51,599 nt of DNA from Phormidium yuhuli AB48. Its GTDB lineage: Bacteria; Cyanobacteriota; Cyanobacteriia; Cyanobacteriales; Geitlerinemataceae. The DNA is taken from the NCBI RefSeq assembly GCF_023983615.1, contig NZ_CP098612.1:1-51599 (forward strand), read 5' to 3'. The translations under genes were made by a program, and so were the position numbers. Shown here one piece after another: positions 1 to 38,014 of the stretch; position 1 is the first letter of the stretch; the number at the start of each line of letters is the position of its first letter. The notes beneath the pieces are model-generated. The model did no database searches, was not told the DNA's origin, and saw only the letters and a list, made by a program, of their open reading frames with translations.

Positions 1-1023
1 GAAGTCGCGACATACCTCCCGCTGGATAGTTTCCCAACTCCCAGCCGGGGGGAGTCGTTTTATCAGGCAGTTGCGATCGCGCACAACGAGGTTCTGCGGG
101 TTCCTGACTTGCTCCAGGTTTGGCGCTCTTCCCCATTACCCCAAATAGGAGATGTCTATGAACTGCTGTCGGGCGTTGAGGCAACAACATTGTCAGAGAT
201 TGAACAGCAGATTCAACTTCTGATTGAACCGGCCCGAGAACCGGAGAACGTTCGAGAACGGTGGCAACTTTGGGAGCTTCGCCAACTCCTCGAAACCGAA
301 GCCTATGCGAATGTTGGGATGTCTGGGCCCCCAGGGTCTATTGGGTTGAACTTTACTGGAAACCTCCCTGTGGTCAGCCCAGGTAACCTGGGTGGCATTG
401 TGGATGGCTTAACCCGAATTACCCAATTGTTCCTTGCCTTCTTCAGTAGCACGATTGTCCCAGGGGATGCGATCACAGCCATCGTCCAGGCAACCAATGC
501 CGTTGTTCTTAAGTTCTTCGAGGTGGGAGCGGGGAGTTTGGTTGGGGATTTGGCGGCGGCTGTGCTGCGTACCATTGATTTGCCGGCCATCTATTCCATC
601 ACAATGACGTTCGCTGGAACTTGGGCATTCCTCATGGCGTACGCCCCGCTGATTATCCTGGCCGCGATTTGTGCGATCGCCGTCATCCAGAACAGTCGTC
701 GGCTCAAGATTGGGGAACATCTTAATGTGTTCGCCGGTTTGCCGGGGTCGCCGTCGGCGATGGCATTTGGAGGGTTGGCTAATCCAAACCGGGCCACAAT
801 GAAGGCTGCCTTGATTGAGCTGGCCCAGGACTTGCGGAACGACGGGGCCAACTTTGAGCCGGTCATGGGGTTTGTGTTGGATTCGCGCGATCGCGTCGCG
901 ATGGTTCTCAACCTGACCAGCCTAGATGACCCCATTGAACTGTTTGGGCAGGCAATGGATGCAGCGGCGATTCCATATCAGGAGCAACTGGGCCGTTCGT
1001 TTGATGATTGGTGGAATGCTTAG
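1..1023 (+). CDS. membrane protein, 3' part of a gene cut by the window edge
   Basis: The frame is open from base 1, so the gene begins outside the left edge; it joins in frame to the gene that runs off the right edge, giving 434 residues if the molecule is circular. Family not recognised. The part here has a soluble helical start, a glycine/proline-rich stretch, then hydrophobic segments (LTRITQLFLAFFS and WAFLMAYAPLIILAAICAIAV) before a soluble C-terminus ending in DDWWNA. It is probably anchored in the membrane by one or more helices. The next gene starts 9 bases after its stop, with a ribosome site AGGAGG overlapping the stop, so it is co-translated with the polymerase-like protein. A TTG at 109 could be read as a start, but the frame is open upstream and continues the other fragment, so I do not use it. 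Confidence 0.75.
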   Translation, partial: EVATYLPLDSFPTPSRGESFYQAVAIAHNEVLRVPDLLQVWRSSPLPQIGDVYELLSGVEATTLSEIEQQIQLLIEPAREPENVRERWQLWELRQLLETEAYANVGMSGPPGSIGLNFTGNLPVVSPGNLGGIVDGLTRITQLFLAFFSSTIVPGDAITAIVQATNAVVLKFFEVGAGSLVGDLAAAVLRTIDLPAIYSITMTFAGTWAFLMAYAPLIILAAICAIAVIQNSRRLKIGEHLNVFAGLPGSPSAMAFGGLANPNRATMKAALIELAQDLRNDGANFEPVMGFVLDSRDRVAMVLNLTSLDDPIELFGQAMDAAAIPYQEQLGRSFDDWWNA

Positions 1024-1032: not shown

Positions 1033-3669
1033 ATGCCGGAAATTCAAGAACCCAACATCTCCTGGAAAAACATCCTCATGGCTCCTGATGGCAGTCGGGG
1101 GAGGATTTACGTCACAACAACCTGGAGTGTTTATGACCTAGAGGAGCAACGGAAAGTTGGAGGCGACCCGGTGGTGCTGCGCAACATTCTGCTCACCGGG
1201 CTTCATCCTCGAAATGCCTTTGCCATTGGCCAAGTCTCGAAAACCCAAGACAGGCCCGGATATCTAAACCCCTTTTATCCATTCGCCCTGGAAGAAGGAG
1301 CCGAGCCAAACAGCCGAGAAGGTCCCAGGGTTGCCTTAGACTTAGCCTCCAATAGCCGGACTCATGGGCGCTTCACATTTACCGATAAACGAGTGGGCCG
1401 GCCCTATTTTGGTGCTGACTGGAAGCGCATCATTTACGGGTCAATCCTCCACACAGGTTGCCGGGCGCTGGTATATCGGCAGATGAGGTTTATCGTCACT
1501 GACGATGAACTCCGCGACTTCCAGGGGCAGCCCTACGACGACCCGGTGAACCAACGAAATTGGAACACCGGCGATTCCCATGCCACAGGGAGTACCGCAC
1601 TGATGGAACATTTGGGGATTGCAACTCAGAGTCCCGATGGTGAATACGAGCCGGAGGTGAACCGGCCCATCCAATTTCGCTGTGCAGAGTTTAAGAAATG
1701 GGTGGGCAAGGGGACGATTGCCCATAATCCCGCCCTTGATGGAGTGGCGGATATGGCCATTCCACTCAGTTCACTCAAAGGGAACAAACTTCCGCTGGGG
1801 AACCATGAGGCCAAGCTACTCCTCGGCTACGTCCATGGGGCTGAGCAGCGCCGGGCATCTCCGGGTTGGATGCTGTTTCAGTGGTTCGATTTCGAGACAC
1901 TGGAGCAAGACAATATCATTTCCAATTTGATTGCCAAGGCAAGAGACCTCGGCAGTGCATTCAACTCAATCCAGGATTTGGCCAGGATTCTCAGGGTCGA
2001 GCAAGGTGACGCCGAATCATTGGATGAAATGGAACGCCTCAACTCTGAGGCCCTTTATGTGAACACGATGATGAGCGTCGTCATAGCTGATGAGGCGGGG
2101 ATTCTTCTGCTCCATCCCTATGTGGTGCGCCGAGTGAAGGAGCGGTATCGGGCCATGTTCCTCAAGTTGGCCAAGGCAGCGGGTGTCCGCTTCTGGTCTG
2201 TGATGACCATGCCTGATGAGAGTTTGGCCCACTACTGGACTCAAGACCCCGACGGGCGCATCATCGGCGATAAGGTATTTTGCGCCGGTGAATTTCCACC
2301 AGGTGAATATATTGTGTTTGCGAATCCAATGAGACATTGGGGGGATATTCAACTCTGGGAAAACAAGCACGAAGGGCGTTTCACCGGGTCTCTGGGGGTG
2401 ATGGCTGCTCCCAGGGACTTGCTGTTGAGCTTGGGTCGGGATACGGATGGGGATTTTGTGCAGTTGATTCGAGCCGATACCTACCCGGCGATGGCCGAGG
2501 CAATTCGCAACTTTACCGATACCCCGAATGTGGCGAAATTCCCTAAGCGGGCGTTACAGGGCAACTTGGGAGAGATTGCTCTGGGCAGCATGAACGATTT
2601 AACTGGAGTCGTTGCTTCACTACTCGGCAAGGCGCGATCGCAGCTTGCAGAAAATATCGTTCTAGAAATCCCTCCCGGCGGCGAACAAGAGGAGACGATT
2701 GAGATGAGGATTATTGACTTCCTCAGCCAGGAACTCCAGATTGCCGTGGACTCTCTCAAATCTGCTTACCCCAATAATGAGGCTGGGCTCGAGGAAGTAT
2801 CGAAGTTCCTTAAACAGCGCAATGCTCAAGCTGGGATTTGGATTAAGGATTTGAAAGACCCCAACACCTACCTCACCCGACCAGTCGCCGTTGAGCCGGG
2901 CGCAATTGACACCGTTTCTCGCATTCTGCAAATCGTTAACTCCAACTGGAACGCTCCCAGCCTGGACGTTGACTCAAATCCTCGGTCTTACCAAAATGTC
3001 CTCTTTGGCAAAGAGCAGATTCCGTTTTCCCCATTTCAGGAGCAGGTTGCCTATGAAGCGAGAGACGATTATCGTGCGGCTATGGCGCAGGCGATCGCAC
3101 GGAAGGAACAAACCGGGGATGATACAGCTATCAAAGCCGTAGCGATGGCCACAAAGGAATCCAAGGAGGGGATTTTGGCTTTAGTTGACCCAGCAACAGG
3201 TGAACGATTCTCCCCTCAATCTTGGGTATCTGCGTTTTGGCACGTTTCCCACGATGCCAATACCGGCGATGCCGGTTTGGTATTCATGATGTTCGGCACG
3301 GAAATTGTTAATCGACTCCGGGAGTATGACCCAGAAGAGGTGAAGGTCTTTGACGTTTATGGTACTCAATTCAATGAATGGGCCCATCCGACTTGGCGAT
3401 GGGGGGGACAAACTGTACAGACCCGAGTTGAAATCGCCCAGATTGCTGGTCGTCAGCAGAAAGTTATCTATATGAAATGGAGTGGGGCTAATACCTTGAC
3501 TGGATGGCATTTGTTGGGGATTATTTCCGATGCACAAGCTGGAAATCTCGTTCCTGGTCAAGTCTCAACTCGGCTAGCTTATACAATCCGATTCAAGGCT
3601 GAACAGGGAACAACTCGCATCAGGTTCCTTGACCTCTCTCTTGAAGATGACTATATGCTGTATCTTTAA
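1033..3669 (+). CDS. putative single-chain two-barrel RNA polymerase (QDE-1/YonO-like)
   Basis: 878 residues, start fixed by AGGAGG 5 bases before ATG. Seen: residues 470-474 read D-T-D-G-D, the DxDGD metal-binding loop of the second double-psi beta barrel of cellular beta' subunits, eukaryotic RNA-dependent RNA polymerases and phage YonO. About 30-45 residues before it stands an NPMRHWGDIQ segment, like the NPCLHPGDI segment that precedes DxDGD in RdRP-type enzymes. Residues 213-227 (IQFR..., K226-G227) followed by a PLSSLKGNK segment near 244-252 resemble the first barrel (fQiR...KG..., then RPSMkKF) that supplies the active-site lysines. K226 to D470 is about 240 residues, of the order I recall for QDE-1, and total length is close to YonO (about 900). 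Role inferred: template-directed RNA synthesis. It lies between a membrane protein gene and an HU-like gene in one operon. No zinc finger or nuclease motif is seen. Alternative: an inactive relative; but all three aspartates are present. Confidence 0.72.
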   Translation: MPEIQEPNISWKNILMAPDGSRGRIYVTTTWSVYDLEEQRKVGGDPVVLRNILLTGLHPRNAFAIGQVSKTQDRPGYLNPFYPFALEEGAEPNSREGPRVALDLASNSRTHGRFTFTDKRVGRPYFGADWKRIIYGSILHTGCRALVYRQMRFIVTDDELRDFQGQPYDDPVNQRNWNTGDSHATGSTALMEHLGIATQSPDGEYEPEVNRPIQFRCAEFKKWVGKGTIAHNPALDGVADMAIPLSSLKGNKLPLGNHEAKLLLGYVHGAEQRRASPGWMLFQWFDFETLEQDNIISNLIAKARDLGSAFNSIQDLARILRVEQGDAESLDEMERLNSEALYVNTMMSVVIADEAGILLLHPYVVRRVKERYRAMFLKLAKAAGVRFWSVMTMPDESLAHYWTQDPDGRIIGDKVFCAGEFPPGEYIVFANPMRHWGDIQLWENKHEGRFTGSLGVMAAPRDLLLSLGRDTDGDFVQLIRADTYPAMAEAIRNFTDTPNVAKFPKRALQGNLGEIALGSMNDLTGVVASLLGKARSQLAENIVLEIPPGGEQEETIEMRIIDFLSQELQIAVDSLKSAYPNNEAGLEEVSKFLKQRNAQAGIWIKDLKDPNTYLTRPVAVEPGAIDTVSRILQIVNSNWNAPSLDVDSNPRSYQNVLFGKEQIPFSPFQEQVAYEARDDYRAAMAQAIARKEQTGDDTAIKAVAMATKESKEGILALVDPATGERFSPQSWVSAFWHVSHDANTGDAGLVFMMFGTEIVNRLREYDPEEVKVFDVYGTQFNEWAHPTWRWGGQTVQTRVEIAQIAGRQQKVIYMKWSGANTLTGWHLLGIISDAQAGNLVPGQVSTRLAYTIRFKAEQGTTRIRFLDLSLEDDYMLYL

Positions 3670-3672: not shown

Positions 3673-4236
3673 ATGATGACTAAAGATATACGTTTGTTAG
3701 AAACTATGTTCGACCACATTGCAGAAGTAACTGGCTACTCCGAACAGTCAGTCGAAACGGTCATTCTCGCTTTTGTTCAATATGTCAAGACCTCCATTCA
3801 GAATGGAGAGGATGTGCAGATTACCGGTTTCGGAACCTACACCCATACTGACCTTAAGAAACGCCCTGGGCGCAATCCTCGGACGGGTGAAAGTATTACC
3901 CTGCCTCCATCTCGCCGTCCTCGCTTTAAGTTCAGCAAGAAATTTATTGAAGGAGTCCAACCAGACCCCAAGGTTAAACCCAAGCGGTCTAAAGCCAAAG
4001 CTGACAAATCTGAAGGGCCACAAGTTACTAACTCTGAAGTAGCCCCACCGCCGATTCCCAAACAGTTCCTTTCTCCAGTCGTTGAGCAGAAAATCTGGAG
4101 TGCGATTGTCGATGGTCAGGTGGTCTCGGTTCCTCATAAGGAAGCGACCCAACTTGACGGACATATCCCGGTTTGGGCTAAAGGGCGTAAGGGTTGGGAA
4201 CTGAAAGAGTCTGTCCCTGAACTGTCGGCATCCTAA
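3673..4236 (+). CDS. HU/IHF-family DNA-binding protein with a long C-terminal extension
   Basis: Residues 1-97 are a full HU domain: helical dimerisation part, then the beta-arm signature GFGTY...R-x-GRNPRTGE-x-I (GRNPRTGE at 66-73) and a basic F-K-x-S-K-K end. HU dimers bend DNA. The usual length is about 90 residues; here 187. Residues 98-130 are a lysine/proline-rich linker, and the rest (about 140-187: WSAIVDGQVVSVPHKEA...PVWAKGRKGWEL) looks like a small added domain with several tryptophans that I do not recognise. The start is 3 bases after the stop of the polymerase-like gene; two ATGs (3673, 3676) are possible. The location suggests it works with that enzyme or compacts plasmid DNA; this is inference. 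Confidence 0.9.
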   Translation: MMTKDIRLLETMFDHIAEVTGYSEQSVETVILAFVQYVKTSIQNGEDVQITGFGTYTHTDLKKRPGRNPRTGESITLPPSRRPRFKFSKKFIEGVQPDPKVKPKRSKAKADKSEGPQVTNSEVAPPPIPKQFLSPVVEQKIWSAIVDGQVVSVPHKEATQLDGHIPVWAKGRKGWELKESVPELSAS

Positions 4237-4681: not shown

Positions 4682-4939
4682 TCATGATTCCCTAACATTT
4701 GGACGGGTAGCCATGACCAGGTCGTAGAGGTTGCAACGGAGTAGTTGGCAAAGCTCCAGCGTCTCCTCGGGGGTCAGCCGGGGAGGATATCGATGGGCAT
4801 TCCACTCTCGAATGCTTTTAGGGCTTACTTTTCGAGAGCTACCAATTTCTGAAAATCGGCGGTTCAGGGCTTCGCAAAATTCCTTCTGGTTGAAGCCAGC
4901 ACCGGAATACAATTCCTGAATTGTCAATCCTGCTTTCAT
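4682..4939 (-). CDS. XRE-type helix-turn-helix regulator
   Basis: 85 residues. A single DNA-binding fold: helix-turn-helix with MKAGLTIQELYSGAGFNQKEFCEALNRRF, then SPKSIREWNAHRYPPRLTPEETLELCQLLRC, the pattern of Cro/XRE domains in which the recognition helix ends in W-N-x-x-R. It is transcribed divergently from the replication initiator, with 176 bases between the starts. A plasmid copy-control repressor is the natural guess. Confidence 0.72.
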   Translation of the reverse strand: MKAGLTIQELYSGAGFNQKEFCEALNRRFSEIGSSRKVSPKSIREWNAHRYPPRLTPEETLELCQLLRCNLYDLVMATRPNVRES

Positions 4940-6644: not shown

Positions 6645-8546
6645 TTATGTTGCCGGTTCAGGAGTCCAGGGAGTGGGCGGTCGATAACATCGCTGTCGTA
6701 TCCCGTTGAAATAACTCCGAACCGACTCCCATCCCAGCCGTTGGAATATTCGACTGACTCGCATCTGCTCTCGCCTGGTCTGTTGGATGGTATCGAGTTT
6801 CAGGCAGTTAGTAAGGATTTCAGCGTTTGAGACTTCACTTAGATTCTGAGCGTATTGTTCGACCCGAGCATCCCAGGGGTCGCTGATTTCGTACTCCCGA
6901 TTGGCCTCATTCTGGAGTTCTTGTTCTTCGGTAGTTAAATCGCAGTCTTCACCCGCTTCGTAGGCGGTGATCGCAGCAGCCCAAATCGCATCGCGATTCT
7001 GTTTCAGTTTCTTCAGGTTGATTTGGCCGACGGGAATGACCCAAAATCGGCGATTTCCGGTTGCATCCTGCAAAAACTCATCTTCATTGGTGGTGCCAGC
7101 GACGACAGTGCGCCGACGTAATAGCTCGTGTTTCCGTGCATAGGGGGCGCGAACGACATCAACCTGTTTTGAAAAGAAATCCTTGACTTCCCCGCTGGCC
7201 CGTTTGCCTGCGATCGCACACTCAATTTCAGCAATCTCACAAATCCAGTGGCGGTGCAGAGCGAGGATATGGTCTTTATCCCGGCAGTCGTGAATGGTAT
7301 CGGTGAAAAACTCACCACCTAGAATGCGTAGAGAGAGCGATTTTCCAATGCCCTGCTTCCCTTTCAAGATGAGTGCGTTATCAAACTTGCAGCCAGGTTC
7401 GTACACCCGTTTGACAGCTGCAATCAGCCATCGTTTCAGATAGCTGTTGTAGAGGGGCAGTAGAGGGTCGTTTTTATCGACTCCGAAATACTGTGTTGCC
7501 AGGTGGTCGATATTCACCTTTCGTCCACCCCGAATGGAGTCTAAATGTTCCTTCACCGGGTCATACTGATACTTCTGTGCTAGCCACTCAATCGCGTCAC
7601 ACGCCAGTGTTTTCGAGCATTCAATGTGATTTTCCAGCAGGTTTAAGTAGAAATGTTCAGTCCGGGTGGGTTCACCATCAATCTCAATTTCTCGCGTTCT
7701 GACATTGAGACGGGTGCGATTCCCCCAAATATGCCGGATATAGACAAATTTCTCTGTCTTCGACATCCTGGACTTCTTAGCCCATTTTGCAAACGGGATG
7801 GCACTCTCCATTAGCTGTTGTAGCTGTTTGGGTCGCCGCCGGGGGAGAAAACCACATAAATAGTCATCCAGACCCTTACCGTCTTCCTGCGACCACTGCA
7901 TCACATAGACACTCACGGTTCCCTTGGCATTGAGACATTCTCCCAATTTCTTCAGGGCGTGCTGGACTTGCCATTTTCGGATAATGTCTGAATCGAAGGC
8001 GAGGTAAATCGAACGACCAGGTTGGCAAAATGCCTCTAACTGGGGTTTTAGCTGTCCCTCCTTCAACCCACAATTTACACCGGGCAGTGAAATGGTGGCC
8101 ACGCCGTTGGACAAACCGCAGCCTGCCTTCTTCGCGCCCTCGGTGATGATGATGGGGATGTTGGGATTCTCCAAGACCCTGTTCCAATAATTTGGCTCCC
8201 CGGTGTCAAGGAATAGCGGCGTGGCTTCATATCCCGAAGCGCCAAGATATTTCCGAGCCTTGCCATCGTCACCAACGGGCGGATTGTCGGGTTTGTATTG
8301 GATTCCCAGTAATGTCGGCTCTCCAGTCTGGGGGTCAACCCCACGAACCGACCAGCCAGGGACGAGATGATTACTGTGCTTCCAGCGTCGATTGGTGTTT
8401 CGGCTCAGCAATTCGTCAACCTCGCGCCCATCCTTGTGACTTTGGATAGCGTTGACGGTGATTTCGCGGTCAACCCCTGAGTCTTCCCATTCGCTCAGGT
8501 GGTTGGTGTGGATGGTGTTGTAAGAATTTAAATCGGTGGCAAGCAT
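6645..8546 (-). CDS. primase-helicase: toprim-like DUF3854 domain plus VapE-type ATPase
   Basis: 633 residues from ATG 8546, which has GAGGAAG 5 bases upstream; the longer frame from TTG 8585 lacks a ribosome site. N-terminal part (about 90-210): IIITEGAKKA at 134 and YLAFDSD at 187, the glutamate and DxD of toprim-like DUF3854 domains of plasmid/phage primases. C-terminal part (about 300-560): P-loop GKQGIGKS at 396-403, then ICEIAEIE (Walker B-like) and the R-R-x-x-V-x-x-G-T-T-N and TGNRRFWVIP segments typical of the virulence-associated E / D5-like helicase family. It should prime and unwind plasmid DNA. Confidence 0.88.
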   Translation of the reverse strand: MLATDLNSYNTIHTNHLSEWEDSGVDREITVNAIQSHKDGREVDELLSRNTNRRWKHSNHLVPGWSVRGVDPQTGEPTLLGIQYKPDNPPVGDDGKARKYLGASGYEATPLFLDTGEPNYWNRVLENPNIPIIITEGAKKAGCGLSNGVATISLPGVNCGLKEGQLKPQLEAFCQPGRSIYLAFDSDIIRKWQVQHALKKLGECLNAKGTVSVYVMQWSQEDGKGLDDYLCGFLPRRRPKQLQQLMESAIPFAKWAKKSRMSKTEKFVYIRHIWGNRTRLNVRTREIEIDGEPTRTEHFYLNLLENHIECSKTLACDAIEWLAQKYQYDPVKEHLDSIRGGRKVNIDHLATQYFGVDKNDPLLPLYNSYLKRWLIAAVKRVYEPGCKFDNALILKGKQGIGKSLSLRILGGEFFTDTIHDCRDKDHILALHRHWICEIAEIECAIAGKRASGEVKDFFSKQVDVVRAPYARKHELLRRRTVVAGTTNEDEFLQDATGNRRFWVIPVGQINLKKLKQNRDAIWAAAITAYEAGEDCDLTTEEQELQNEANREYEISDPWDARVEQYAQNLSEVSNAEILTNCLKLDTIQQTRREQMRVSRIFQRLGWESVRSYFNGIRQRCYRPPTPWTPEPAT

Positions 8547-8622
8547 CACTCTTCCTCGGTAGTGGCGAGGGATGATGCTGTTCAATTCGGATTCTGGCTA
8601 AGAATTTTTTTTGGTCAGTCTC

Positions 8623-19833: not shown

Positions 19834-20685
19834 CTATGTGTTTATGTTTGTAACATTTCCATGAACTTTGGCTGCAACGGATCCTACCGATCCCGTAAAA
19901 GTCTGATTAATATTGATGTTTTGCATGAATTCATCGAGTGTTTGTATTGGTAGTTCTTCTTCATTTAAAATATCGCGTATTGCCCAAATAGCTGTATGAA
20001 GTGTTGGTTTTAAAAACATCATTGAATCATCGATGTCAAAAGTTCCGAAGTTTACTTCATTGTTCATGAAAACCTGGCGCAATGCAAAAACTATATTTCC
20101 TTGGGCTTGAAAAATTCTTCGAATTAAATCCCACCATGTAAATGTAATATAGCTAATGATTATAAACCATAAAAACTGATTTAGATCTTGTACGCCTCCT
20201 AAACCTAATAATACAACAAAGATAATAAACGAGATAACTGTCGTAAAACACTTTTTCAGAAAACTTTTCCACCTGATTCCCCCTAAAAAATAGGTATCAA
20301 CCCCTAGGTATAGATGAGATCCATATCCATGGAACCTTATAAAAACTGTGGTTTGTGTATTCTTGGGAGTTCGGCGAGTGATTACAATGTAAAGCCTTTC
20401 ATCTTTTAGAGGGGATAAGCTGTTTCGATTTTGGAATTCTTGAACATATTTGTTCAGGTAAAGCTTTGCATCACCTAAATTTCCGCCACTAACTTCACTT
20501 AACACCTTTTGATATAACTTCTGGCAAATTGTGTCAAGTCGATTACCCTGAACTTGATAACTTTGATACAGTCTGAAGCCCTCTAACTCTAATCCTGCAC
20601 CATCTGAAGGATCTCTCAACTGGAATAAATTTCCAATAGGGATTACCTTGTGAATCTTATCTTTCAGATAATCTTGCTTGTTCAT
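19834..20685 (-). CDS. two-helix membrane protein with a C-terminal GVAG-like motif
   Basis: 283 residues. N-terminal 130 residues soluble (FRLYQSYQVQGNRLDTICQKLYQ...LYIVITRRTPKN), then two membrane helices (about 146-165 TTVISFIIFVVLLGLGGV and 171-188 FLWFIIISYITFTWW). The last 25 residues, INQTFTGSVGSVAAKVHGNVTNINT, match the repeated motif of the neighbouring plus-strand genes (FTGSVSGVAGEVHGNQININ). Family not recognised; it may be the membrane partner of those proteins. Confidence 0.65.
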   Translation of the reverse strand: MNKQDYLKDKIHKVIPIGNLFQLRDPSDGAGLELEGFRLYQSYQVQGNRLDTICQKLYQKVLSEVSGGNLGDAKLYLNKYVQEFQNRNSLSPLKDERLYIVITRRTPKNTQTTVFIRFHGYGSHLYLGVDTYFLGGIRWKSFLKKCFTTVISFIIFVVLLGLGGVQDLNQFLWFIIISYITFTWWDLIRRIFQAQGNIVFALRQVFMNNEVNFGTFDIDDSMMFLKPTLHTAIWAIRDILNEEELPIQTLDEFMQNININQTFTGSVGSVAAKVHGNVTNINT

Positions 20686-27814: not shown

Positions 27815-28915
27815 TTAGTAATTGAGTCTAGCTCGGCGTTCTGCCATTTCTCGTGCTTCTTCTTCAGTCCAGCATCGTTCGGGTTCTAAATCAGGCACAC
27901 CCTGAAACTTTGTCTGAACTAGATTAGAGCCAGTAATTTCATCAATCAACTGTGCCAGAGCTTTACAGCAGGATTTAGAATGCCGGAGTGCCTGACGTTC
28001 GCTGAAAAATAAGACATACCAATCATTGTTCTGGAAAGTTTTGATGCGCTCACCATAGTTACTTTGTCCGATACAGTGAGTTACTTCTAATGATTTTGAA
28101 CTATTAGGATACTGACGAGGAATATAAGGCTCATCAATTTCAATATCAATGCTCACAGAGTTTTCGGTGTCAATATAGGAGAAATCGGGGATTTTGCCGC
28201 AAACATAATAAAGAACGTGGATTTTATCGCCAAAATATCGACGAAGTAATGATGGTAGCCGACAATTACGCTCATATTCGGCATATCCTCGCGGGTCAAA
28301 TTCATTGACATCCACCTCAAATCCTAGACCTGCTGGACTAAGAGTGATTGTCTTGATTTGCTCCTCTCGCCATTTCTGGATACCCTCTGGAGTTTTGAGT
28401 AAATCACATTGCCGACGGTGTTCTTTCCGAGTTTTCTGATTCTGTTGTTCGATGTCCTGACACCGCCTGCGATATTGTTCATAACGAAGTTGGTAATCCC
28501 GTTCTGCTCTCGCAACCTCCTCGTTGTATCCCGTCAGTTGATTTTGATGCGATCGCTCCTTCTCCCGATACTGCTCCAATCGCTTGGGATAATTTCGCCA
28601 TTGTCGCCAGAAGGCCACCCCGGTTCCGACCGCTGATAACCCGAACAGCAATGCCCCAGCGAGAAGGTCAACTGAGGCGATCGCACCCATGATGATAGCC
28701 AGAACCGCACTGACCCCTATCAACAAGCCGTAATTCAACCGTTTGGGGGGAGATTGATTAAAGACAGGAACAGCAGGAGTCTTTGGTTTCTCGGGCGGCG
28801 AGGGAAGCTGAATCAACGCCAACGCCGGTTCGGTCGGTGTCTCAGATAATATCTGTTCGACCTGTCTGGGGAGGAAGACGGCTGGGTAATGTGTTGGAGT
28901 GTCCGGTGAAAGCAT
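27815..28915 (-). CDS. membrane, coiled-coil and nuclease-like protein (paralogue B)
   Basis: 366 residues, colinear with the gene downstream: YPAVFLPRQVEQIL...PTEPALALIQLP, two membrane helices (about 62-105), a coiled coil (108-180), the nuclease-like core KIPDFSYIDTENSVSIDIEIDEPYIPRQYP and WYVLFFSERQALRHSKSCCKALAQLID. The core keeps all acidic residues expected of PD-(D/E)xK folds. The two genes are 41 bases apart and in the same direction, so they are a tandem duplication. Confidence 0.75.
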   Translation of the reverse strand: MLSPDTPTHYPAVFLPRQVEQILSETPTEPALALIQLPSPPEKPKTPAVPVFNQSPPKRLNYGLLIGVSAVLAIIMGAIASVDLLAGALLFGLSAVGTGVAFWRQWRNYPKRLEQYREKERSHQNQLTGYNEEVARAERDYQLRYEQYRRRCQDIEQQNQKTRKEHRRQCDLLKTPEGIQKWREEQIKTITLSPAGLGFEVDVNEFDPRGYAEYERNCRLPSLLRRYFGDKIHVLYYVCGKIPDFSYIDTENSVSIDIEIDEPYIPRQYPNSSKSLEVTHCIGQSNYGERIKTFQNNDWYVLFFSERQALRHSKSCCKALAQLIDEITGSNLVQTKFQGVPDLEPERCWTEEEAREMAERRARLNY

Positions 28916-32280: not shown

Positions 32281-32559
32281 TCAGTCCTCTTTACCTCGCA
32301 CAGAAGCCAGTAAAGACTTAGCGAACAGGTCGTTTTGTTCCTCTAACCATCTTACCCGCTCAGCCTCCTTAGCTTTAATTTCCGCACGGTGAGCGAGAAT
32401 TTCCTTGGTGATTGCCACGATAGCTGAGAGGATAACTCCCGCAAGAGGAACCAACAAGTTACCGTCCCAGATAGCGTCGATGGGTTTCTGAGCTACTGGG
32501 GCTTGAATTTCAGTAAGCTCAGTGGTTGATTTTTTCTGGTTCAGGAGTTCATTGTTCAT
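32281..32559 (-). CDS. small one-helix membrane protein
   Basis: 92 residues with one membrane helix (about 33-50, LLVPLAGVILSAIVAITKE) followed by a charged helix (HRAEIKAKEAERVRWLEEQNDLF). Starts in the TAATG overlap with the stop of the nuclease gene, so the two are one operon. Unknown function. Confidence 0.7.
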   Translation of the reverse strand: MNNELLNQKKSTTELTEIQAPVAQKPIDAIWDGNLLVPLAGVILSAIVAITKEILAHRAEIKAKEAERVRWLEEQNDLFAKSLLASVRGKED

Positions 32560-33095
32560 TATCCATCCTCCCGGATTGCCCGTTTGTATTGATAAGGGAG
32601 AGTGAAATCTGGGTCAGCCCAGAATCCTACTCCTCTCTCTTTGGCTCGGGCGCAAGTTCCCAGAATCCCCTTAAAGAGGGCCAGGTCTCGTTTTGCCCGA
32701 AAATCATATTGCTGATAGGGTAGGCTATTGGCGGCCAGCCCATTCGCACAGAGCGCGATTTGGATATTGTTCGCAAACCCGACCCGATTCCAATACCAAT
32801 CAGCCAGCCAGCGCCCCCATTGGTCGCGTCCCTTTAATACCACCCTGATATATGGTCGGTTCTCTAACTGCGCTGTGAGCCAGTCAGTGGCCACTTGTCC
32901 CCAGTGCCATTGCCGCTGGTAGTCAATCGGCGCATTGTCTAAATCCTGTCCTGGGCGAGGAAGCTCCGGCGTGTCAATCCACCGACACCGCGTCACAAAA
33001 ACCTCGCTATGATACCTGAGCAGCAACGTATCGCCGTCGAAAACCTGGAGAATCGACGCTTTTAGGCTCTGGTTCTCGTAGAGTACTGACGACAT
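32559..33095 (-). CDS. thermonuclease-like (SNase) protein
   Basis: 178 residues with the SNase fold and its catalytic set: VFDGDTLLLR (D-G-D), TRCRWIDTPELP (R and E), and VVLKGRDQWGRWLADWYW (second R). No signal peptide, so it acts in the cytoplasm. It would cut DNA or RNA non-specifically or in a repair setting. Coupled to the small membrane protein downstream. Confidence 0.88.
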   Translation of the reverse strand: MSSVLYENQSLKASILQVFDGDTLLLRYHSEVFVTRCRWIDTPELPRPGQDLDNAPIDYQRQWHWGQVATDWLTAQLENRPYIRVVLKGRDQWGRWLADWYWNRVGFANNIQIALCANGLAANSLPYQQYDFRAKRDLALFKGILGTCARAKERGVGFWADPDFTLPYQYKRAIREDG

Positions 33096-33196
33096 TTTAA
33101 CTGGAAGAAGATGCGGTTCTTAATGCTACTTTACAATCAATATGATTGCCCACCGTGGTATTACCGATAACCATCAATCTTAAGGTTTTCTTAAGA

Positions 33197-33228
33197 TAAA
33201 AAAAGACGACTTCAAAGAGAAGCCGTCT
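33197..33228 (-). terminator. intrinsic terminator, minus strand
   Basis: Stem AGACGACTTC/GAAGCCGTCT with loop AAAGA, T-run (A on plus) at 33197-33204. Second of two in a row. Confidence 0.6.
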
Positions 33229-33271
33229 CCCTTATGTCACCTTATGCAAGTTTTTATTGTCCATTGTTAAT

Positions 33272-33300
33272 AAAAAAAAGACAACCCCACAGGGTTGCCT
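33272..33300 (-). terminator. intrinsic terminator, minus strand
   Basis: Stem GACAACCC/GGGTTGCC, eight A on plus at 33272-33279; 27 bases after the end of the next gene, which it should terminate. Confidence 0.7.
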
Positions 33301-33326
33301 TATTCGTTTCTAGTTGCTGTTAGCTG

Positions 33327-34010
33327 TTAGTTGCCTTCCGGTAGAGCTTCTTTCATTGGACTCAACCGATTCCGACATTGCTTGTCGTTTTCGACGAGCA
33401 TCGGGTCGAGACAGAAACTCGTCCCTGCCACCTGTTTTGCGGCTTCGAGCGCAGCCTTCTCCAGTTCAGACTCGGGTTTCTTCTCCGTGATTTCGATGAA
33501 GTAGTAAGGACCATAAGACCCCTCAGTCATGGTGAACTGGAAGCGGAAAATGTGGTTGAACTGTGCTTGCTGAATTTTCTCAAAAGCAACCTTATTCGGG
33601 TCGCCCTCCATGCCGCTGTTCACCCATTCAGTGAAGGCATTTTGGCTGAAGACTTCCAGTAGCCGTCCCAGGTTGTCCTTGCTGCGCCGGTGCAGCAGGA
33701 ACGTGCAGACTTGGCTGGCTTGTTCGGGAAATTGAGCCTTCATTTCCCCAGCGGTGGGGATGCCCCAAATTTCAATGAATGGCTCGTTGAGGTAATGCGG
33801 TTCAAAGGTTAGCATCCGCTCGTGAACGTCACAAAGTGCCATCTCCACAAACTCCCCTTTGGTCAGCCCAGCTTTCTCTGCTTTAGCCACATTCATTCCC
33901 TTGGTGTCACCATGAACAAAACAGCCCCACTCTTTGGAGCAGTTGGCACGATAACGGGCAGGCAATTCAGGAACACGAAAGGCAAATTTGTTGATTTGGA
34001 TAATGTGCAT
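33327..34010 (-). CDS. hypothetical protein
   Basis: 227 residues, not recognised. Starts MHIIQINKFAFRVPELPARYRANCSKEWGCFVHG; soluble, with a segment EGSYGPYYFIEITEKKPESELEKAALEAAKQVAG in the C-terminal half. Two cysteines near 24-30. Has its own hairpin-bounded transcription unit in the row of minus-strand genes. Confidence 0.65.
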   Translation of the reverse strand: MHIIQINKFAFRVPELPARYRANCSKEWGCFVHGDTKGMNVAKAEKAGLTKGEFVEMALCDVHERMLTFEPHYLNEPFIEIWGIPTAGEMKAQFPEQASQVCTFLLHRRSKDNLGRLLEVFSQNAFTEWVNSGMEGDPNKVAFEKIQQAQFNHIFRFQFTMTEGSYGPYYFIEITEKKPESELEKAALEAAKQVAGTSFCLDPMLVENDKQCRNRLSPMKEALPEGN

Positions 34011-34067
34011 GGTTCAATTTCTCGTTGTGTTTACAAGGTGGGGAGGTATGACCCTCCCCGGTGACAA

Positions 34068-34511
34068 TTACAGGTAGAATGACAGGTTAGGAACAAACTT
34101 GGTTGCCTGGTCTTGTGCCAGTTTCAGCCGTAGTTCCAGTCCTTTCAAATGGGGACTGTGCAAGAGAGCCAGTTTCATTTCCTCCAGAACTTCAACCTGT
34201 TCGCGATGAAACTGAATGCGCTTTTCCAGCTCCAGTAATTCCTGTTGGTTTGCCTCAAACAGACGGGTTTTCTCAGTGCTGATATCGCTCATTAGCCGAG
34301 AAACCTTGGGAGTTTCAATGACTTGGCGCCGATAGCGCAGAATGATTTTCTGCTTCGGCGTCTCAAAGACCGTCCGTTTGGCGCTGCGATCGCCCCCAGT
34401 AAGGTCAATCGCTTCGGCGACAGCATTAGGGATGATTTTTGTTTTCAATTCCTCCTCCCGTTTCTTGATATCAAGACGGTGATTTAGTGCCAGTTCAAGG
34501 TAGCTGCCCAT
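34068..34511 (-). CDS. coiled-coil hypothetical protein
   Basis: 147 residues from ATG 34511, which follows GGAGGAC; a longer frame to 34589 overlaps the gene upstream and is not used. Strongly helical: KKREEELKTKIIP and TEKTRLFEANQQELLELEKRIQFHREQVEVLEEMKLALL form a coiled coil. Could be a structural or adaptor protein. Two bases after the stop of the next gene, so the pair is an operon. Confidence 0.68.
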   Translation of the reverse strand: MGSYLELALNHRLDIKKREEELKTKIIPNAVAEAIDLTGGDRSAKRTVFETPKQKIILRYRRQVIETPKVSRLMSDISTEKTRLFEANQQELLELEKRIQFHREQVEVLEEMKLALLHSPHLKGLELRLKLAQDQATKFVPNLSFYL

Positions 34512-34513
34512 AA

Positions 34514-34708
34514 TTAGTCCTCCAGAATGCGGTTGAAAGTAGATTCGTCGTTGGAGAGAAGCACGGAGAATGCCTCTCGCAGACGACAAAATTCATCCAA
34601 GGATTGCGGGGTATCGGGTTTGCCCGTTCGCGCCAAAAATGTGTAATAGTCTAGTTCGTCAAATGCTTTGCTAATGCGCTCAAATACACTTATGGTGTCG
34701 ATTGACAT
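34514..34708 (-). CDS. short helical protein
   Basis: 64 residues, acidic and helical (ISVFERISKAFDELDYYTFLARTG...LDEFCRLREAFSVLLSNDES). ATG preceded by GGAGG. The conserved AATCCGGTAGGG element is 27 bases upstream. No family recognised. Confidence 0.65.
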   Translation of the reverse strand: MSIDTISVFERISKAFDELDYYTFLARTGKPDTPQSLDEFCRLREAFSVLLSNDESTFNRILED

Positions 34709-34735
34709 GAGAACCTCCAGTAAGAATCGACACCT

Positions 34736-34754
34736 AATCCGGTAGGGTTCGGTG
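34736..34754 (-). promoter_or_regulatory. conserved element copy 1
   Basis: AATCCGGTAGGGTTCGGTGG on plus, read on minus before the gene starting at 34708 (27 bases). Preceded on plus by AATCGACACCT, matching the AATC-N6-AATCCGG layout of the other copies. Confidence 0.65.
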
Positions 34755-34755
34755 G

Positions 34756-34784
34756 ACTCTCCCCCAATAGCTGGAGGAGAGTTT
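34756..34784 (-). terminator. hairpin before the conserved element
   Basis: ACTCTCC and GGAGAGT arms around CCCAATAGCTGGA; lies between the SLOG gene's end and the next unit. Confidence 0.45.
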
Positions 34785-34790
34785 GACTGG

Positions 34791-35285
34791 TTAGAGCAGG
34801 GTCAGCTGAGTGGGGGCGATGTGTTGATGAAGTTGGCCCGTTTCAGGGTTAATCCAGTAGAGTGGCCGTTCTCGTGCGATCGCCCGTTGGATTGTGTAGC
34901 GCGTGCCTCCCCCGCGCCGGTGGTCGAAGATTGCAATGCCCATCTCACAGACCTCGACCATGTGCCGGTTGCGATGGTGGTTGCAGCCCATCTCGTACTG
35001 CTGGTGCAGCCATAGGATTTCCTCGGCCCCATTCAGCAGTTCCCAAAACACCCGCTGCTGGGACTTTGACCAGCGACTTTCGTATCCGTGGCAGGGGATT
35101 AACGCTTTCCAGGGAAGGCCCCGGCGCGTCCATTCCAGCGCGGCGAGTTGGTCGGTTCCCAGTGCCATGCCCGTATAAAAGCGAGTTGCCCCGTGGGCGA
35201 TCGCAAGGTCTGTCAATTTGGCCAGATACCGGGAAGTGTGACCCAGGTGGACTCGGCGATGTCCGGTCACAAAGCAATTAACCAT
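34791..35285 (-). CDS. SLOG-fold protein (YpsA/DprA-like)
   Basis: 164 residues: CFVTGHRRVHLGH (strand and glycine loop), FYTGMALGTDQLAALEW (the GMA-x-G-x-D block), ALIPCHGYESRWSKSQQ, NRHMVEVCEMGIAIFDHRRGGGTRYTIQRA. This is the YpsA/DUF1273 form of the SLOG (Rossmann-like) fold that binds nucleotides or their derivatives. Overlaps the next gene by 8 bases. Its ligand here is unknown. Confidence 0.85.
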   Translation of the reverse strand: MVNCFVTGHRRVHLGHTSRYLAKLTDLAIAHGATRFYTGMALGTDQLAALEWTRRGLPWKALIPCHGYESRWSKSQQRVFWELLNGAEEILWLHQQYEMGCNHHRNRHMVEVCEMGIAIFDHRRGGGTRYTIQRAIARERPLYWINPETGQLHQHIAPTQLTLL

Positions 35286-35724
35286 AGTGTTCTACTGCCT
35301 CCTCAATGAATCCATTAACCCCGGCAACGAAGCGCCGTCCCCAGGCTGCATTGCGAGAGTCGCTGATTCGGTAGCGTCGCAGGCTTGCCCGCACTAAAAG
35401 CTCTTGAACAAGCTCCTGGTTTTGGATACACCATTGTTGAATCAGTGCCTCCGTCGCCGGTTTGACGAATTGTTCCCGGACTCCACGGCTGCTGTATTCC
35501 AGCAGCACAGGTTCGGCAGTCAATTCATCAGTGGAAATGCTCCGGGCAAAGTCCCGCAGAAACTCATGGGTCAGGGTTTGCAGCATTTCACTCATTTCCT
35601 CGGTGAAGGGATGCACTGAATCGTCACACCGAGTTAGTTTCATGTGTTCTGGCTGAAAGCGATTGTCCTTGCCAATGTCGTAGCCTTTGCGATGATAGTA
35701 CAGTTGGATAACTTGGTTGTTCAT
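35278..35724 (-). CDS. hypothetical protein
   Basis: 148 residues, helical (MSEMLQTLTHEFLRDFARSIS, ALIQQWCIQNQELVQELLVRASLRRY). No motif recognised. The stop overlaps the start of the SLOG gene, so the two are translated together. Confidence 0.65.
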   Translation of the reverse strand: MNNQVIQLYYHRKGYDIGKDNRFQPEHMKLTRCDDSVHPFTEEMSEMLQTLTHEFLRDFARSISTDELTAEPVLLEYSSRGVREQFVKPATEALIQQWCIQNQELVQELLVRASLRRYRISDSRNAAWGRRFVAGVNGFIEEAVEHYG

Positions 35725-35749
35725 AGTTTTCTTGGTGTGCTAGTTGGTG

Positions 35750-36148
35750 TTAGTTGTTAAACTTCTGGCAATACTCAATCAACGCCGCTGCCAATAACGC
35801 AGCATGGTCGAGTTCAGAACCAGCAGTGTTTTTGTCCCACAATTGCTTATTGTGAGACCCCGCAAGGATAATTAACTCCTTGGCAAGACGTTCGTTCTGC
35901 TCAAGCCAAATAACCAGGAGTTCACGATAAAAAGCTTTACAAATTCCAACCTTGTCAACTTTAAGAGCAATGCTCAGGGTTAGGTCGGTTTTAGCTTTCA
36001 GCTTGGAGACCTCCATGAGTGTCCCAATATGGTTCCAGATATTTCCTACAGTTCCGTGAAAGTCAATAGTCATGAAGGTGGAACAAAATCGCTTATCCCC
36101 ATCTAGGGAAATGTCGTAGCCATTTTCGTCGGCTTGGAAGATATACAT
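35750..36148 (-). CDS. hypothetical protein
   Basis: 132 residues. Begins MYIFQADENGYDISLDGDKRF; the second half is helical and ends in AALLAAALIEYCQKFNN. ATG has AAGGAGAA before it and the conserved element 33 bases upstream. Some likeness in plan to the gene before it (a first strand with YDI, then helices), but I cannot show homology. Confidence 0.65.
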   Translation of the reverse strand: MYIFQADENGYDISLDGDKRFCSTFMTIDFHGTVGNIWNHIGTLMEVSKLKAKTDLTLSIALKVDKVGICKAFYRELLVIWLEQNERLAKELIILAGSHNKQLWDKNTAGSELDHAALLAAALIEYCQKFNN

Positions 36149-36180
36149 AATTCTCCTTGGAAGAATGAAAATCAGAAGCT

Positions 36181-36200
36181 AATCCGGTAGGGTTTGATGG
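36181..36200 (-). promoter_or_regulatory. conserved element copy 2
   Basis: AATCCGGTAGGGTTTGATGG, identical over 20 bases to copy 3; 33 bases from the start codon of the gene at 36148. Preceded on plus by AATCAGAAGCT. Confidence 0.7.
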
Positions 36201-36201
36201 T

Positions 36202-36236
36202 AAAAAAGACCCTCCTTTCTGGCAGGAGAGTCTTTT
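36202..36236 (-). terminator. intrinsic terminator, minus strand
   Basis: AAGACCCTCCT/AGGAGAGTCTT stem with T-run on minus (six A at 36202-36207). It lies 4 bases before the next gene's end and directly abuts the conserved element: terminator then promoter-like element. Confidence 0.75.
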
Positions 36237-36239
36237 AAG

Positions 36240-36764
36240 TCAACTGGTTTTCATTTGATTTAACAAGAGACCAAGTTGGGCTGGTGGACTCCACCCATTA
36301 AGGGTGACTTGGTTGTAACGGGCATCCACCCAACGAATGTGTAAGCTATACTGCTTGGCATAGTCTAAGGACTCTTTGACCCGTCCTTTGCTCTCCCCAT
36401 CCCAAATCGCCAAAGCCCCGGCACTGCGCCGAATCATAAATAAGGTCATCAGAGTTTCATCCGATAATGCCTTGTCGCCATGCTCCTCAGCAATAGCAAT
36501 CTGTTGGTAGGTTGCCTTCTCTAAGATGTCACGGTCATGGCGACTCAACCGCTCTCGATTCTGCAAACTTGCTGCACTCCAGCTTGGAGGATGTACAATA
36601 CACAATTGCCCATTCCAGGCTTCAGCAAATGCTTTCTCTGGCTCGGTTGATGCCGGGGTAATAACTGAGCTTGCCTGAAGATTATAGGCTTCCTCTTTTA
36701 AGACCCGTAGGGCTGACTCTGTGATAGCAGGATTGTAGTTCTCCGCTACAAATAAATACTGCAT
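36240..36764 (-). CDS. SLOG-like hypothetical protein
   Basis: 174 residues from ATG 36764. MQYLFVAENYNPAITESALRVLKEEAYNL at the start, LCIVHPPSWSAASLQNRERLSRHDRDI in the middle, and MIRRSAGALAIWDGESKGRVKESLDYAKQYSLHIRWVD at the end. The last block has the W-D-G-x-S-x-G-x-x-x-x-x-x-x-A-K pattern of SLOG/YspA proteins. Similar in plan to the other two SLOG proteins here but more diverged. Confidence 0.58.
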   Translation of the reverse strand: MQYLFVAENYNPAITESALRVLKEEAYNLQASSVITPASTEPEKAFAEAWNGQLCIVHPPSWSAASLQNRERLSRHDRDILEKATYQQIAIAEEHGDKALSDETLMTLFMIRRSAGALAIWDGESKGRVKESLDYAKQYSLHIRWVDARYNQVTLNGWSPPAQLGLLLNQMKTS

Positions 36765-36876
36765 AGTCTGTAAAAACAATAACTTTTTGCGTCTGTTTAG
36801 TCAAAAAAACACGACTTTTTCTCGCGTATGTAATACGACGTATTACAACGGTTATAGACATTATACGGTTTCTTGA

Positions 36877-36906
36877 TAAAAAAAGACCCCCTAAGTCGGG
36901 AGTCTT
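36877..36906 (-). terminator. intrinsic terminator, minus strand
   Basis: AGACCCCC/GGGAGTCT hairpin, seven A on plus; 12 bases after the stop of the 59-residue gene. Confidence 0.7.
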
Positions 36907-36917
36907 GTAACATTTTT

Positions 36918-37097
36918 TTACCACTCATCATCAGGGAAGCACTCTAGTTCTTCTTCTGATAACTCGGGTTCAGGAAGGGTAGAAGCTGGGCAAATATAAT
37001 GCCCCTTCCCGTCCTCTCGGGGATAATAATAAACCTCGTCCCATATATCTTCAGGATGAGGTTCGTAGCGGTCATCAGTCGGGGGTAATGAGTACAT
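36918..37097 (-). CDS. very acidic 59-residue protein
   Basis: Starts MYSLPPTDDRYEPHPEDIWDE, ends ELSEEEELECFPDDEW-like acidic tail (ELSEEELECFPDDEW). ATG preceded by GAGGAAATT. Net charge is strongly negative. It has its own terminator 12 bases downstream, which supports a real gene. No family recognised; DNA mimicry is only a thought. Confidence 0.6.
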   Translation of the reverse strand: MYSLPPTDDRYEPHPEDIWDEVYYYPREDGKGHYICPASTLPEPELSEEELECFPDDEW

Positions 37098-37115
37098 AAT
37101 TTCCTCAGTTAAACA

Positions 37116-37376
37116 TCAAGAATCAATCTGGCAAGGTTTCTTCATCCAACGGTTGATTAGTCCCATGTAGATTGATTTCTCATTGCAATTCATGCGATGG
37201 AGTTGAGGGGTTCCCATTTGTCCAAACGAGAAGCGCAGCCGGTCAAGCTGTGCAGCCTTGCGGAATTGATACCGGTGAAGTTCCCGGCGTTGGTCGGGGG
37301 TCAGGTGGCGAGGGGCGCTCAACTGGCAGAAATGGGCGTAGGCGCTGGCAATGTCTAATCGGTCGAAACTGAGCAT
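37116..37376 (-). CDS. hypothetical protein, short paralogue of the 38015 gene product
   Basis: 86 residues. SAYAHFCQLSAPRHLTPDQRRELHRYQFRKAAQLDRLRFSFGQM matches SAYYRFSRLPMPDFLTGAEQRKLRVYQACKAEQIERIADRLKFDW of the larger gene in both spacing and key residues, and both end this block with a KSIYMGLINRW/WKVYIKLIQKW segment. GGAGGAATC before ATG. Helical; unknown function. Confidence 0.7.
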   Translation of the reverse strand: MLSFDRLDIASAYAHFCQLSAPRHLTPDQRRELHRYQFRKAAQLDRLRFSFGQMGTPQLHRMNCNEKSIYMGLINRWMKKPCQIDS

Positions 37377-37390
37377 GATTCCTCCATAAG

Positions 37391-37422
37391 AAAGCCCCCA
37401 TCGGTGTCATCGATGAGGGCTG
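37391..37422 (-). terminator. hairpin 15 bases before a start codon
   Basis: AGCCCCCATCG/CGATGAGGGCT stem (one wobble) just upstream of the RBS of the 37116 gene. Confidence 0.55.
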
Positions 37423-37501
37423 TTTGTACGTGATACTGTGGGTTTGGATTACGAGTCAGCCGGGCCACCGGGAGGATAAGCTCCTCGATGGCCCATTTTG
37501 G

Positions 37502-37936
37502 TTAGTTGAGGCGATAGACCAGGCATTTCATGCCCAATCCTGTTTCGATTTCTTCCCGTAATTCTTCTAGAATTACTTGGACATCGTCGGGGTCGATGTC
37601 TTCGAGCAGATTCTCCTCGTTGTCATAGAAAGCCAGGAAATATCCACGGCCATATGCACCGATGGCATCATCCACAAACTGGTCGATGTCCTCAATGAGT
37701 TCGTGAAATGCAGCATTGGCATCAGTCTCGCATAGCCCTTGTTGGATTGTCAGGATGACATCTGCTGACAACACTTTGCAGTGTTTTGCGATGAAATCTG
37801 CATTGAAAGCCCATAGGGAGTCTTTGATGTATTCCTTGGCGGCTTGGTTGGCGGCCTTTTCGGTGAAGGCGATCGCAAACTCGCAGTCTTCGTTGTCAAC
37901 GATGGGTAGCCCGTAATGTGTATTTTCGTTCTCCAT
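37502..37936 (-). CDS. acidic hypothetical protein of the GYFLA family
   Basis: 144 residues, acidic. Contains YGRGYFLAFYDNEENLLEDID and ends CLVYRLN; the gene at 39694 has MGCGYFLATHDHKEVVCKF and ends FWMYRLH. The two are probably diverged paralogues. No enzyme motif. Confidence 0.68.
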   Translation of the reverse strand: MENENTHYGLPIVDNEDCEFAIAFTEKAANQAAKEYIKDSLWAFNADFIAKHCKVLSADVILTIQQGLCETDANAAFHELIEDIDQFVDDAIGAYGRGYFLAFYDNEENLLEDIDPDDVQVILEELREEIETGLGMKCLVYRLN

Positions 37937-38014
37937 GGTTTTTCTCCAATAAACAGCCCTCCCATTTCCAGGAGGTTCCGGGTGTTGTTTAGCGGTCGCA
38001 CGCTTGCCTTGGAG

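Follow-up and report, generated by a model that had tools for sequence, protein, structure and literature searches.

A predicted single-chain, two-barrel RNA polymerase on a cyanobacterial plasmid and the oriented, promoter-like motif that accompanies it

Described single-chain polymerases and the plasmid locus

Bacterial plasmids are usually regarded as relying on the RNA polymerase (RNAP) of their host. Phage RNAPs of the T7 type, which consist of one chain and use a short promoter beside the start, are alike in working to the system described here and unrelated in fold. We analyzed the entire second contig (51,599 bases; the window) of the two-contig, 4.80-Mb genome of Phormidium yuhuli AB48. 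An open reading frame (ORF) at 1033..3669 on its plus strand encodes a protein of 878 amino acids (aa) that is predicted to be a single-chain RNAP of the YonO/QDE-1 class.

YonO of Bacillus phage SPbeta, reported by Forrest et al. (PMC5467207) to be active, is, like the window protein, a single chain of ~100 kDa with two barrels, a DxDGD-type motif, and a D..K pair after the motif. YonO transcribes the SPbeta late genes (PMC5467207 and PMC8270828), and the promoter that it recognizes was left open in 2017 (PMC5467207). An HU-family gene (yonN) is next downstream on the same strand, a further likeness to the plasmid locus. YonO differs in belonging to phages of Firmicutes, and its link to the window protein is by profile comparison only, not by tblastn. 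Among the RNA-dependent RNA polymerases (RdRPs; PF05183) that act in fungal and plant RNA silencing, QDE-1 has the closest solved fold. The stretches D.hGKiS..QfR and NPxxHxGDIx..D.DGD recur in plant RDR2, although the alignment that shows them is not significant. Unlike these two, the window protein has no PF05183 match and has an HU neighbor, and no silencing genes were recognized in the window. Solved phage RNAPs (8f5m, P74 gp62; 8f72, P32 gp64; 6vr4, crAss-like phi14:2; 8h2n, P23-45 gp96) are likewise single-chain and two-barrel, with fold matches of E 2e-8 to 1.5e-4; they differ in being phage-encoded, and their fold match is weaker than that of QDE-1.

YonO-like proteins in cyanobacterial genomes are mentioned in PMC5467207, and the enzyme class is therefore not new. 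PMC10770324 mentions 'plasmid single subunit RNAPs', PMC7824862 reviews the class, and earlier surveys cited by these papers may treat cyanobacterial members. Searches limited to open-licence literature turned up nothing that we recognized as an account of an RNAP on a cyanobacterial plasmid, of promoters for it, or of a link to HU.

The predicted polymerase and its relatives

A membrane-protein ORF of 434 aa immediately upstream of the polymerase gene reads across both contig ends, with codons 1–94 at 51318..51599 and codons 95–434 at 1..1023 (both plus strand). The 51.6-kb contig is therefore circular, as expected for a plasmid. The polymerase ORF has an ATG start with AGGAGG 5 nt ahead of it. 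An initial annotation, made from the DNA letters, had placed a single-chain RNAP here with a membrane protein and HU as operon partners; the ORF, both neighbors, and every residue it cited were confirmed. No family was matched by the 878-aa protein in Pfam and NCBIfam searches, and a T7-type or sigma-type identity was dropped for that reason. Its best match among PDB sequences was at chance level (E 1.9), and a PHROG search returned phrog_34895 (function unknown, E 2e-44) plus a second PHROG at E 0.12.

The structural comparison suggested in the initial annotation was made with an AlphaFold2 model built from 20 sequences (mean pLDDT 77.9, pTM 0.66), which was searched against 350,542 PDB chains using Foldseek. 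Ranks 1–8 are all QDE-1 (E 4.7e-11 to 6.3e-10, probability 1.00 at best; 938 alignment columns, gaps included). Phage single-chain RNAPs follow at ranks 9–14, comprising four chains of 8f5m and 8f72, the crAss-like phage RNAP, and P23-45 gp96, and subunits of multi-subunit RNAPs appear in the list only above E 1e-3. The top match in a viral model library is annotated as an RNA dependent RNA polymerase. A 20-member family profile aligned by hhalign with five YonO-type proteins across 415 columns and both barrels (probability 96, E 4.7e-9).

Residues of the motifs exceed chance resemblance and are invariant across 16 aligned members, 15 of which are 21%–54% identical to the window protein. All three signatures read in the initial annotation (IQFR...K226-G with PLSSLK, NPMRHWGDIQ, and DTDGD) are present, and coordinates here are on the plus strand. 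IQFR occupies residues 213–216, and the basic motif of the first barrel (QFR...KGT) continues to K226-G227 (1708..1713). The second basic residue of that barrel lies in PLSSLKG (244–250; 1762..1782), and invariant columns in this part include Q214, R216, K226, G227, T228, D240, K249, and G250. NPMRHWGDIQ (431–440; 2323..2352), with P432 invariant, lines up with NPCLHPGDIRVL of Arabidopsis RDR2 in an alignment that is not significant alone (E 0.078). The metal-binding motif of the second barrel, DTDGD (470–474; 2440..2454), is invariant at D470, D472, G473, and D474. D573..K576-S577 (2749..2763), the counterpart of YonO D625..K628, is also invariant, as are N444, K505, and Q569. D.DGD is kept in 19 listed proteins, one of them YonO-like. 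Strongly purifying selection was found in the 16 closest pairs among relatives (dN/dS 0.05–0.18); silent sites were saturated in the window protein's own pairs and gave no ratio.

The window protein itself has no match to PF05183, staying below the curated cut-off. This RdRP family is matched by 4 of the 16 members at E up to 1 and, at E ≤1e-3, in 10 of 386 genomes of the phylum (0 of 14 controls). The gathering cut-off is passed in 8 of the 386, in one (G297) through a YonO-like gene, and the relative L005 also passes it. A 16-member profile aligned with both RDR2 barrels at E 0.078, which is not significant given that an unrelated protein scored 0.07. Among PDB sequences, a YonO profile reached QDE-1 (E 0.011), while the larger family profile, A7, recovered a coat protein (E 0.42) and no RdRP. 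The idea that the family is nearer to eukaryotic RdRPs than YonO is was dropped in view of these two PDB searches and of the 30 bits that the G297 YonO-like gene scores on PF05183. The fold match, the YonO profile match over both barrels, and the PF05183 matches of relatives support the prediction of a single-chain, two-barrel RNAP of the YonO/QDE-1 class, presumably catalytic.

By tblastn, the window protein matched 26 plasmid records, taken as cyanobacterial, in which the matched features are all named 'hypothetical protein'; there was no match in 50,697 phage records. A single-sequence search of the 386 genomes found a match in 18 (the window's genome included), the 16-member profile matched 39, and the distant query L024 matched 83 plasmid records. 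The closest relatives found are ~50%–55% identical to the window RNAP. We refer to the close group of ~880 aa as clade I, which occurs in 13 of the 386 genomes at ≥44% identity, again counting the window's genome. Anabaena sp. WA102 and Planktothrix agardhii are among the organisms that carry such an RNAP. Cyanobacterial proteins outside clade I are mostly 900–2200 aa long and fall into at least two groups.

Phylogenetic analysis (26 proteins, 708 columns, unrooted) grouped four clade I proteins with full support and placed Pseudanabaena L004 adjacent to them. Five YonO-type phage proteins and that of G297 form a separate clade (support 1.000) on a long branch, with none of the 20 others inside, which attaches beside the L005 group (support 0.865). 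On this unrooted tree, the window protein thus falls outside the YonO family proper. Scans of viral contigs recovered a single locus, twice, and queries from other cyanobacterial groups had no match in them. An ordinary phage origin was rejected, there being no match in phage records and only one viral-contig locus.

Some relatives differ in size or copy number. The Pseudanabaena plasmid (L004) carries two RNAP paralogues 1.7 kb apart, at 1731-6224 (a 1498-aa frame) and 7953-10313 (787 aa). Five giant relatives (L115–L119) of about 1590–2210 aa have DFDGD, and one of them (L119, G305:C2) is on a 5.7-Mb contig. The YonO-like gene of G297 (L066), in a distant member of the same phylum, has an HU gene downstream.

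The gene module and the oriented motif

An HU-family DNA-binding protein with a C-terminal extension is encoded at 3673..4236 on the plus strand, beginning 4 nt past the last base of the RNAP stop. The conservation of this arrangement was counted in 28 clade I loci (24 distinct), to which the fragmentary copies in G119 and G213 do not belong; several loci have short flanks, in one case with 2 downstream bases. A membrane-protein gene is directly upstream in 20 of the 24, HU is ≤1.5 kb downstream in 16, and both are present in 14. Neither gene was found in loci of the other groups (L100–L119; flanks up to 8 kb, several shorter). Hydropathy profiles show at least one hydrophobic stretch in each of 15 membrane-protein sequences. 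A model of one relative's protein (L032) is mostly helical (pLDDT 74.1), and a fold search with it gave no match (best E 0.28).

An HU/IHF-type gene follows the RNAP on the same strand, ≤3 genes downstream, in all six of the YonO-type records inspected: SPbeta, Perkons, PMBT24, BUCT082, TR-TP1, and a Bacillus pumilus plasmid. The HU model confirms five of these genes and TR-TP1 is by annotation; at least three of the six records are SPbeta-like and not independent. The RNAP–HU association is therefore common to phage and plasmid members of the class. The initial annotation knew of no described cyanobacterial plasmid member with a membrane protein and HU as partners. The partner set proved to be conserved in many relatives, but cyanobacterial and plasmid members of the enzyme class are already in print. 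What is new here is that the genes for the membrane protein, the RNAP, and HU form a conserved module, and that HU also follows the RNAP genes of YonO-type phages.

A repeat search identified five copies of one sequence in intergenic regions of the window. In gene sense they read CCCTACCGGATT-N6-YGAYT, all on one strand and ahead of five gene starts. Across the 4.8-Mb genome there are five copies of the 12-mer AATCCGGTAGGG, always on the plasmid and in one orientation, against ~0.6 expected under equal base frequencies. A 15-mer version with ≤3 mismatches has eight matches in the window versus 1.7 in shuffles; the three extra matches lie outside the five-site pattern. The 12-mer ends 27, 32, 28, 27, and 68 nt before start codons that have a ribosome-site-like string. 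All copies are on the minus strand. Four precede ORFs, at 51255..51266 (68 nt before 50800..51186), 41205..41216 (27 nt before 40680..41177), 40232..40243 (28 nt before 39694..40203), and 36181..36192 (32 nt before 35750..36148). The fifth, at 34736..34747, differs from the 15-mer at one position and is followed 27 nt later by the ATG of a 64-aa ORF, which has a ribosome-site-like string. The first of these copies (CCCTACCGGATT in gene sense) is in the divergent region ahead of the RNAP operon and points away from the operon. This plasmid-only, one-strand motif before five gene starts is new here and may act as a promoter.

RNAP plasmids of most relatives examined share the consensus GCTAYCGCTT-N8-TGNTK. 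Contig-specific strings were searched in ten contigs, of which two (G118C88 and G255C3, the latter with 80,000 of 93,983 bases covered) had no site for the string used. The other eight, the window included, have 59 exact sites, of which 58 fall on the majority strand of the contig concerned and 54 outside called ORFs of ≥80 aa. When the 54 non-window sites are aligned, an 8-nt spacer leads into T (49), G (49), any base, and T (44), and then into a T-rich run. Of the 59 sites, 27 have a start codon with a ribosome-site-like string at 10–60 nt downstream, compared to 1383 of 16,000 random positions, 1526 of 16,000 random noncoding positions, and 1 of the 59 sites read backwards. The start-proximal share per contig ranges from 2/9 (G245) to 4/5 (window). 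Conservation upstream of the motif fades within ~four bases. TATAAT-like hexamers are fewer than in letter shuffles, both upstream (12/55 against 25.2) and downstream (11/55 against 21.1), and the two observations together speak against a host-type promoter behind the motif. Sites face away from the RNAP operon in seven of the eight contigs.

A survey of the 386 genomes with the consensus found a match in 57. At least four copies occur only in G245 (14), G072 (11), G127 (10), G255 (6), and G064 (4), all of which carry clade I RNAPs. There are 49 matches in the 13 carriers and 58 in the 373 non-carriers. Of 44 placed carrier matches, 40 are on the RNAP contig or ≤55 kb from an integrated RNAP, so even where a genome contributed to the consensus, its motif copies cluster on the RNAP element; three more are ≤10 kb from an RNAP remnant on the G245 main contig and one is elsewhere. 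Copies independent of the derivation are four on the G064 main contig, ≤55 kb from its integrated RNAP, and the three near the remnant (G245:C1). With TT required, the pattern had 11 matches in 149 kb of unused clade I loci versus 2 in 343 kb of loci from other groups, and the strict pattern had 3 versus 0. The short core GCTAYCGCTTA is less specific; five of its six matching genomes have copies off their RNAP contigs, and G039 has none on its RNAP contig. The motif is element-specific, oriented, and often start-proximal, and it tracks this RNAP. A HIP1-like background was rejected as its source, since the second contig of the genome lacks any exact copy of the plasmid 12-mer and consensus matches average 0.16 per non-carrier genome against 3.8 per carrier. 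Two integrated forms were observed, each with motif copies nearby: an element in the G064 main contig (G064:C1, ~4.05–4.11 Mb) and the decayed RNAP remnant of G245:C1 (~3.76–3.77 Mb).

Motif copies on the window plasmid precede some genes of a minus-strand block (32559..51186) with 26 listed ORFs of ≥100 aa. The 72 window entries (the membrane gene counted twice) were compared with nine related contigs, which include close relatives and one contig of just 18 kb. Nine genes have homologues in at least eight contigs, six of them in the block. The RNAP and 44456..44908 are found in all nine; the other core genes are those for the membrane protein and HU, 50800..51186, 34071..34511, 42685-43185, 34791-35285, and 32562..33095. 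The first gene of the block (50800..51186, minus strand) matches phrog_29376, has homologues in 8/9 contigs, and is of unknown function. The products of 42685-43185 and 34791-35285 are SLOG-type (YpsA-like), and that of 32562..33095 is SNase-like. SLOG-type domains bind nucleotides or NAD in other systems. An HTH-like gene recognized by reading (4682..4939) and a candidate plasmid replication protein (6645..8585, VapE-like with DUF3854) each have homologues in 4/9 contigs.

The plasmid also has four CRISPR-like arrays (11667-13372, 13643-14965, 17343-17605, and 31686-32094) of ~16, 18, 4, and 6 repeats. Their repeats are spaced 71–90 bp apart, except for one 589-bp gap in the first array. A Cas6 gene (30565-31626; PF10040, E 3e-20) adjoins the six-repeat array, and no other cas family was matched among 35 window proteins scanned with Pfam.

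Proposed transcription of the plasmid and alternative explanations

We think it probable that the protein is a DNA-dependent, single-chain RNAP of the YonO/QDE-1 class that transcribes genes of its own plasmid from the motif sites. The computed fold match, motif conservation, purifying selection, gene module, and plasmid-restricted, oriented motif are the observations behind this reading, and catalysis and a DNA template are what we infer from them. The host would transcribe the membrane protein–RNAP–HU operon. The RNAP would then recognize bipartite sites, TACCG-N10-YGAYT in the window plasmid and GCTAYCGCTT-N8-TGNTK in most relatives examined. From such sites just before start codons it would transcribe the divergent block of small genes, with HU assisting by bending promoter DNA and the membrane protein anchoring or regulating the complex. 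Because only the RNAP and HU among the core genes have a recognized role in transcription or DNA architecture, the RNAP is the natural reader of the shared motif.

Several observations weigh against this reading. TM-scores to QDE-1 are moderate (0.38–0.45) with a full-length rmsd of >10 angstrom, and the two predicted barrels follow from the fold match, strand order, and motifs, not from coordinate geometry. A shortened clade I relative beyond the 16 (L018, genome G213), perhaps decaying, has DTDGG instead of DTDGD. The window motif is a diverged variant, and its own genome has 0 matches to the relatives' consensus. The start-codon rule fails at 32 of the 59 sites, and in G116 the sites are oriented the same way as the RNAP. 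The association between at least four copies and carrier status (Fisher test, 1.8e-8) is inflated because G245, G072, G127, and G255 helped define the consensus; the six carriers outside its derivation have five matches (G064, 4; G118, 1; none in G000, G119, G131, or G213). Among ten unused clade I loci scanned with a looser pattern, L039 shows 5 versus 0 sites on the two strands and L040 shows 6 versus 3; in the remaining eight, sites are scarce or absent.

It is possible, if doubtful, that the enzyme serves plasmid replication, as RNAP or primase, and that the motif is an operator for host RNAP and a plasmid regulator, or an mRNA-leader element. The linkage of the motif is to the element and does not imply RNAP binding. 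The sites might instead bind a repressor or act in the leader, a point that also counts against transcription by the plasmid RNAP; a leader element would likewise adjoin start codons. Candidate readers include the three core block genes of unknown function (44456..44908, 34071..34511, and 50800..51186), a further point on that side, and the HTH-like gene on the plasmid. However, that HTH-like gene is in 4/9 related contigs versus 9/9 for the RNAP. The motif has no obvious palindrome, TATAAT-like hexamers are depleted, and the exact 12-mer does not occur on the other contig. The presence of another protein as replication candidate (6645..8585) argues against a replication role for the polymerase.

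The initial annotation had allowed either an RNAP of the plasmid's own or an RNA-templated enzyme. The RNAP class is upheld; sequence does not settle the choice of template, and HU and the promoter-like sites favor DNA. An RNA-templated polymerase of the QDE-1/RDR type, which would copy plasmid or foreign RNA to double-stranded RNA for silencing or defence, is unlikely. That QDE-1 is the best fold match, and was solved with RNA as well as DNA templates, speaks for it and against a DNA-dependent enzyme. The passing of the PF05183 gathering score by some relatives (L005; 8/386 genomes, G297 by its YonO-like gene) and the alignment with both RDR2 barrels, not significant as noted above, point the same way. 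On the other hand, YonO, whose profile is similar across both barrels, is DNA-dependent (PMC5467207). The operon also encodes HU, which binds DNA, and no Argonaute- or Dicer-like gene was recognized among the 35 Pfam-scanned window proteins, in which an ArgoMid match at 19834..20685 was sub-threshold (E 0.045).

A dormant virus with unrecognized particle genes, whose RNAP would be a late-gene polymerase like YonO in SPbeta, is quite unlikely as an explanation, and it is compatible with transcription by a plasmid RNAP rather than exclusive of it. RNAP and HU genes opposite a block of small genes recall the late region of a phage, PHROGs of unknown function are matched by several proteins of the block, and one relative is in a viral collection. 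A weak Rz-like spanin match (27815..28915, E 0.0046) and a sub-threshold Mu Gp48 match (49646..50386, E 0.041) were also found. Against these stand the lack of terminase, portal, or capsid matches among the 35 Pfam-scanned window proteins or 25 PHROG-scanned entries and of any match in the 50,697 phage records. That the protein is a decayed or non-catalytic relative is very improbable: broken copies exist (fragmented in Synechocystis B12, in two parts in G119), as does the DTDGG of L018, but in the window the gene is intact and keeps every catalytic residue, and dN/dS is low among close relatives.

Extended to the relatives, transcription by a plasmid RNAP would describe a family of cyanobacterial plasmids and integrated elements with private transcription, in which an RNAP with its own HU, membrane protein, and co-evolving promoters works independently of host polymerase and sigma factors. 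We lean slightly towards this broader proposal, under which the polymerase would be a DNA-reading relative, on plasmids, of the eukaryotic silencing RdRPs. The neighboring HU gene suggests a possible cofactor for YonO itself. The candidate promoters would make promoter recognition by YonO-like enzymes, left open in PMC5467207, directly assayable. If the proposal is true, photosynthetic bacteria would harbor an orthogonal transcription system, with potential as a tool, in a plasmid family that supplies both the polymerase and its matching promoters. This family would also serve as a test bed for the class that holds cellular RNAPs and eukaryotic silencing polymerases, in one of its simple forms.

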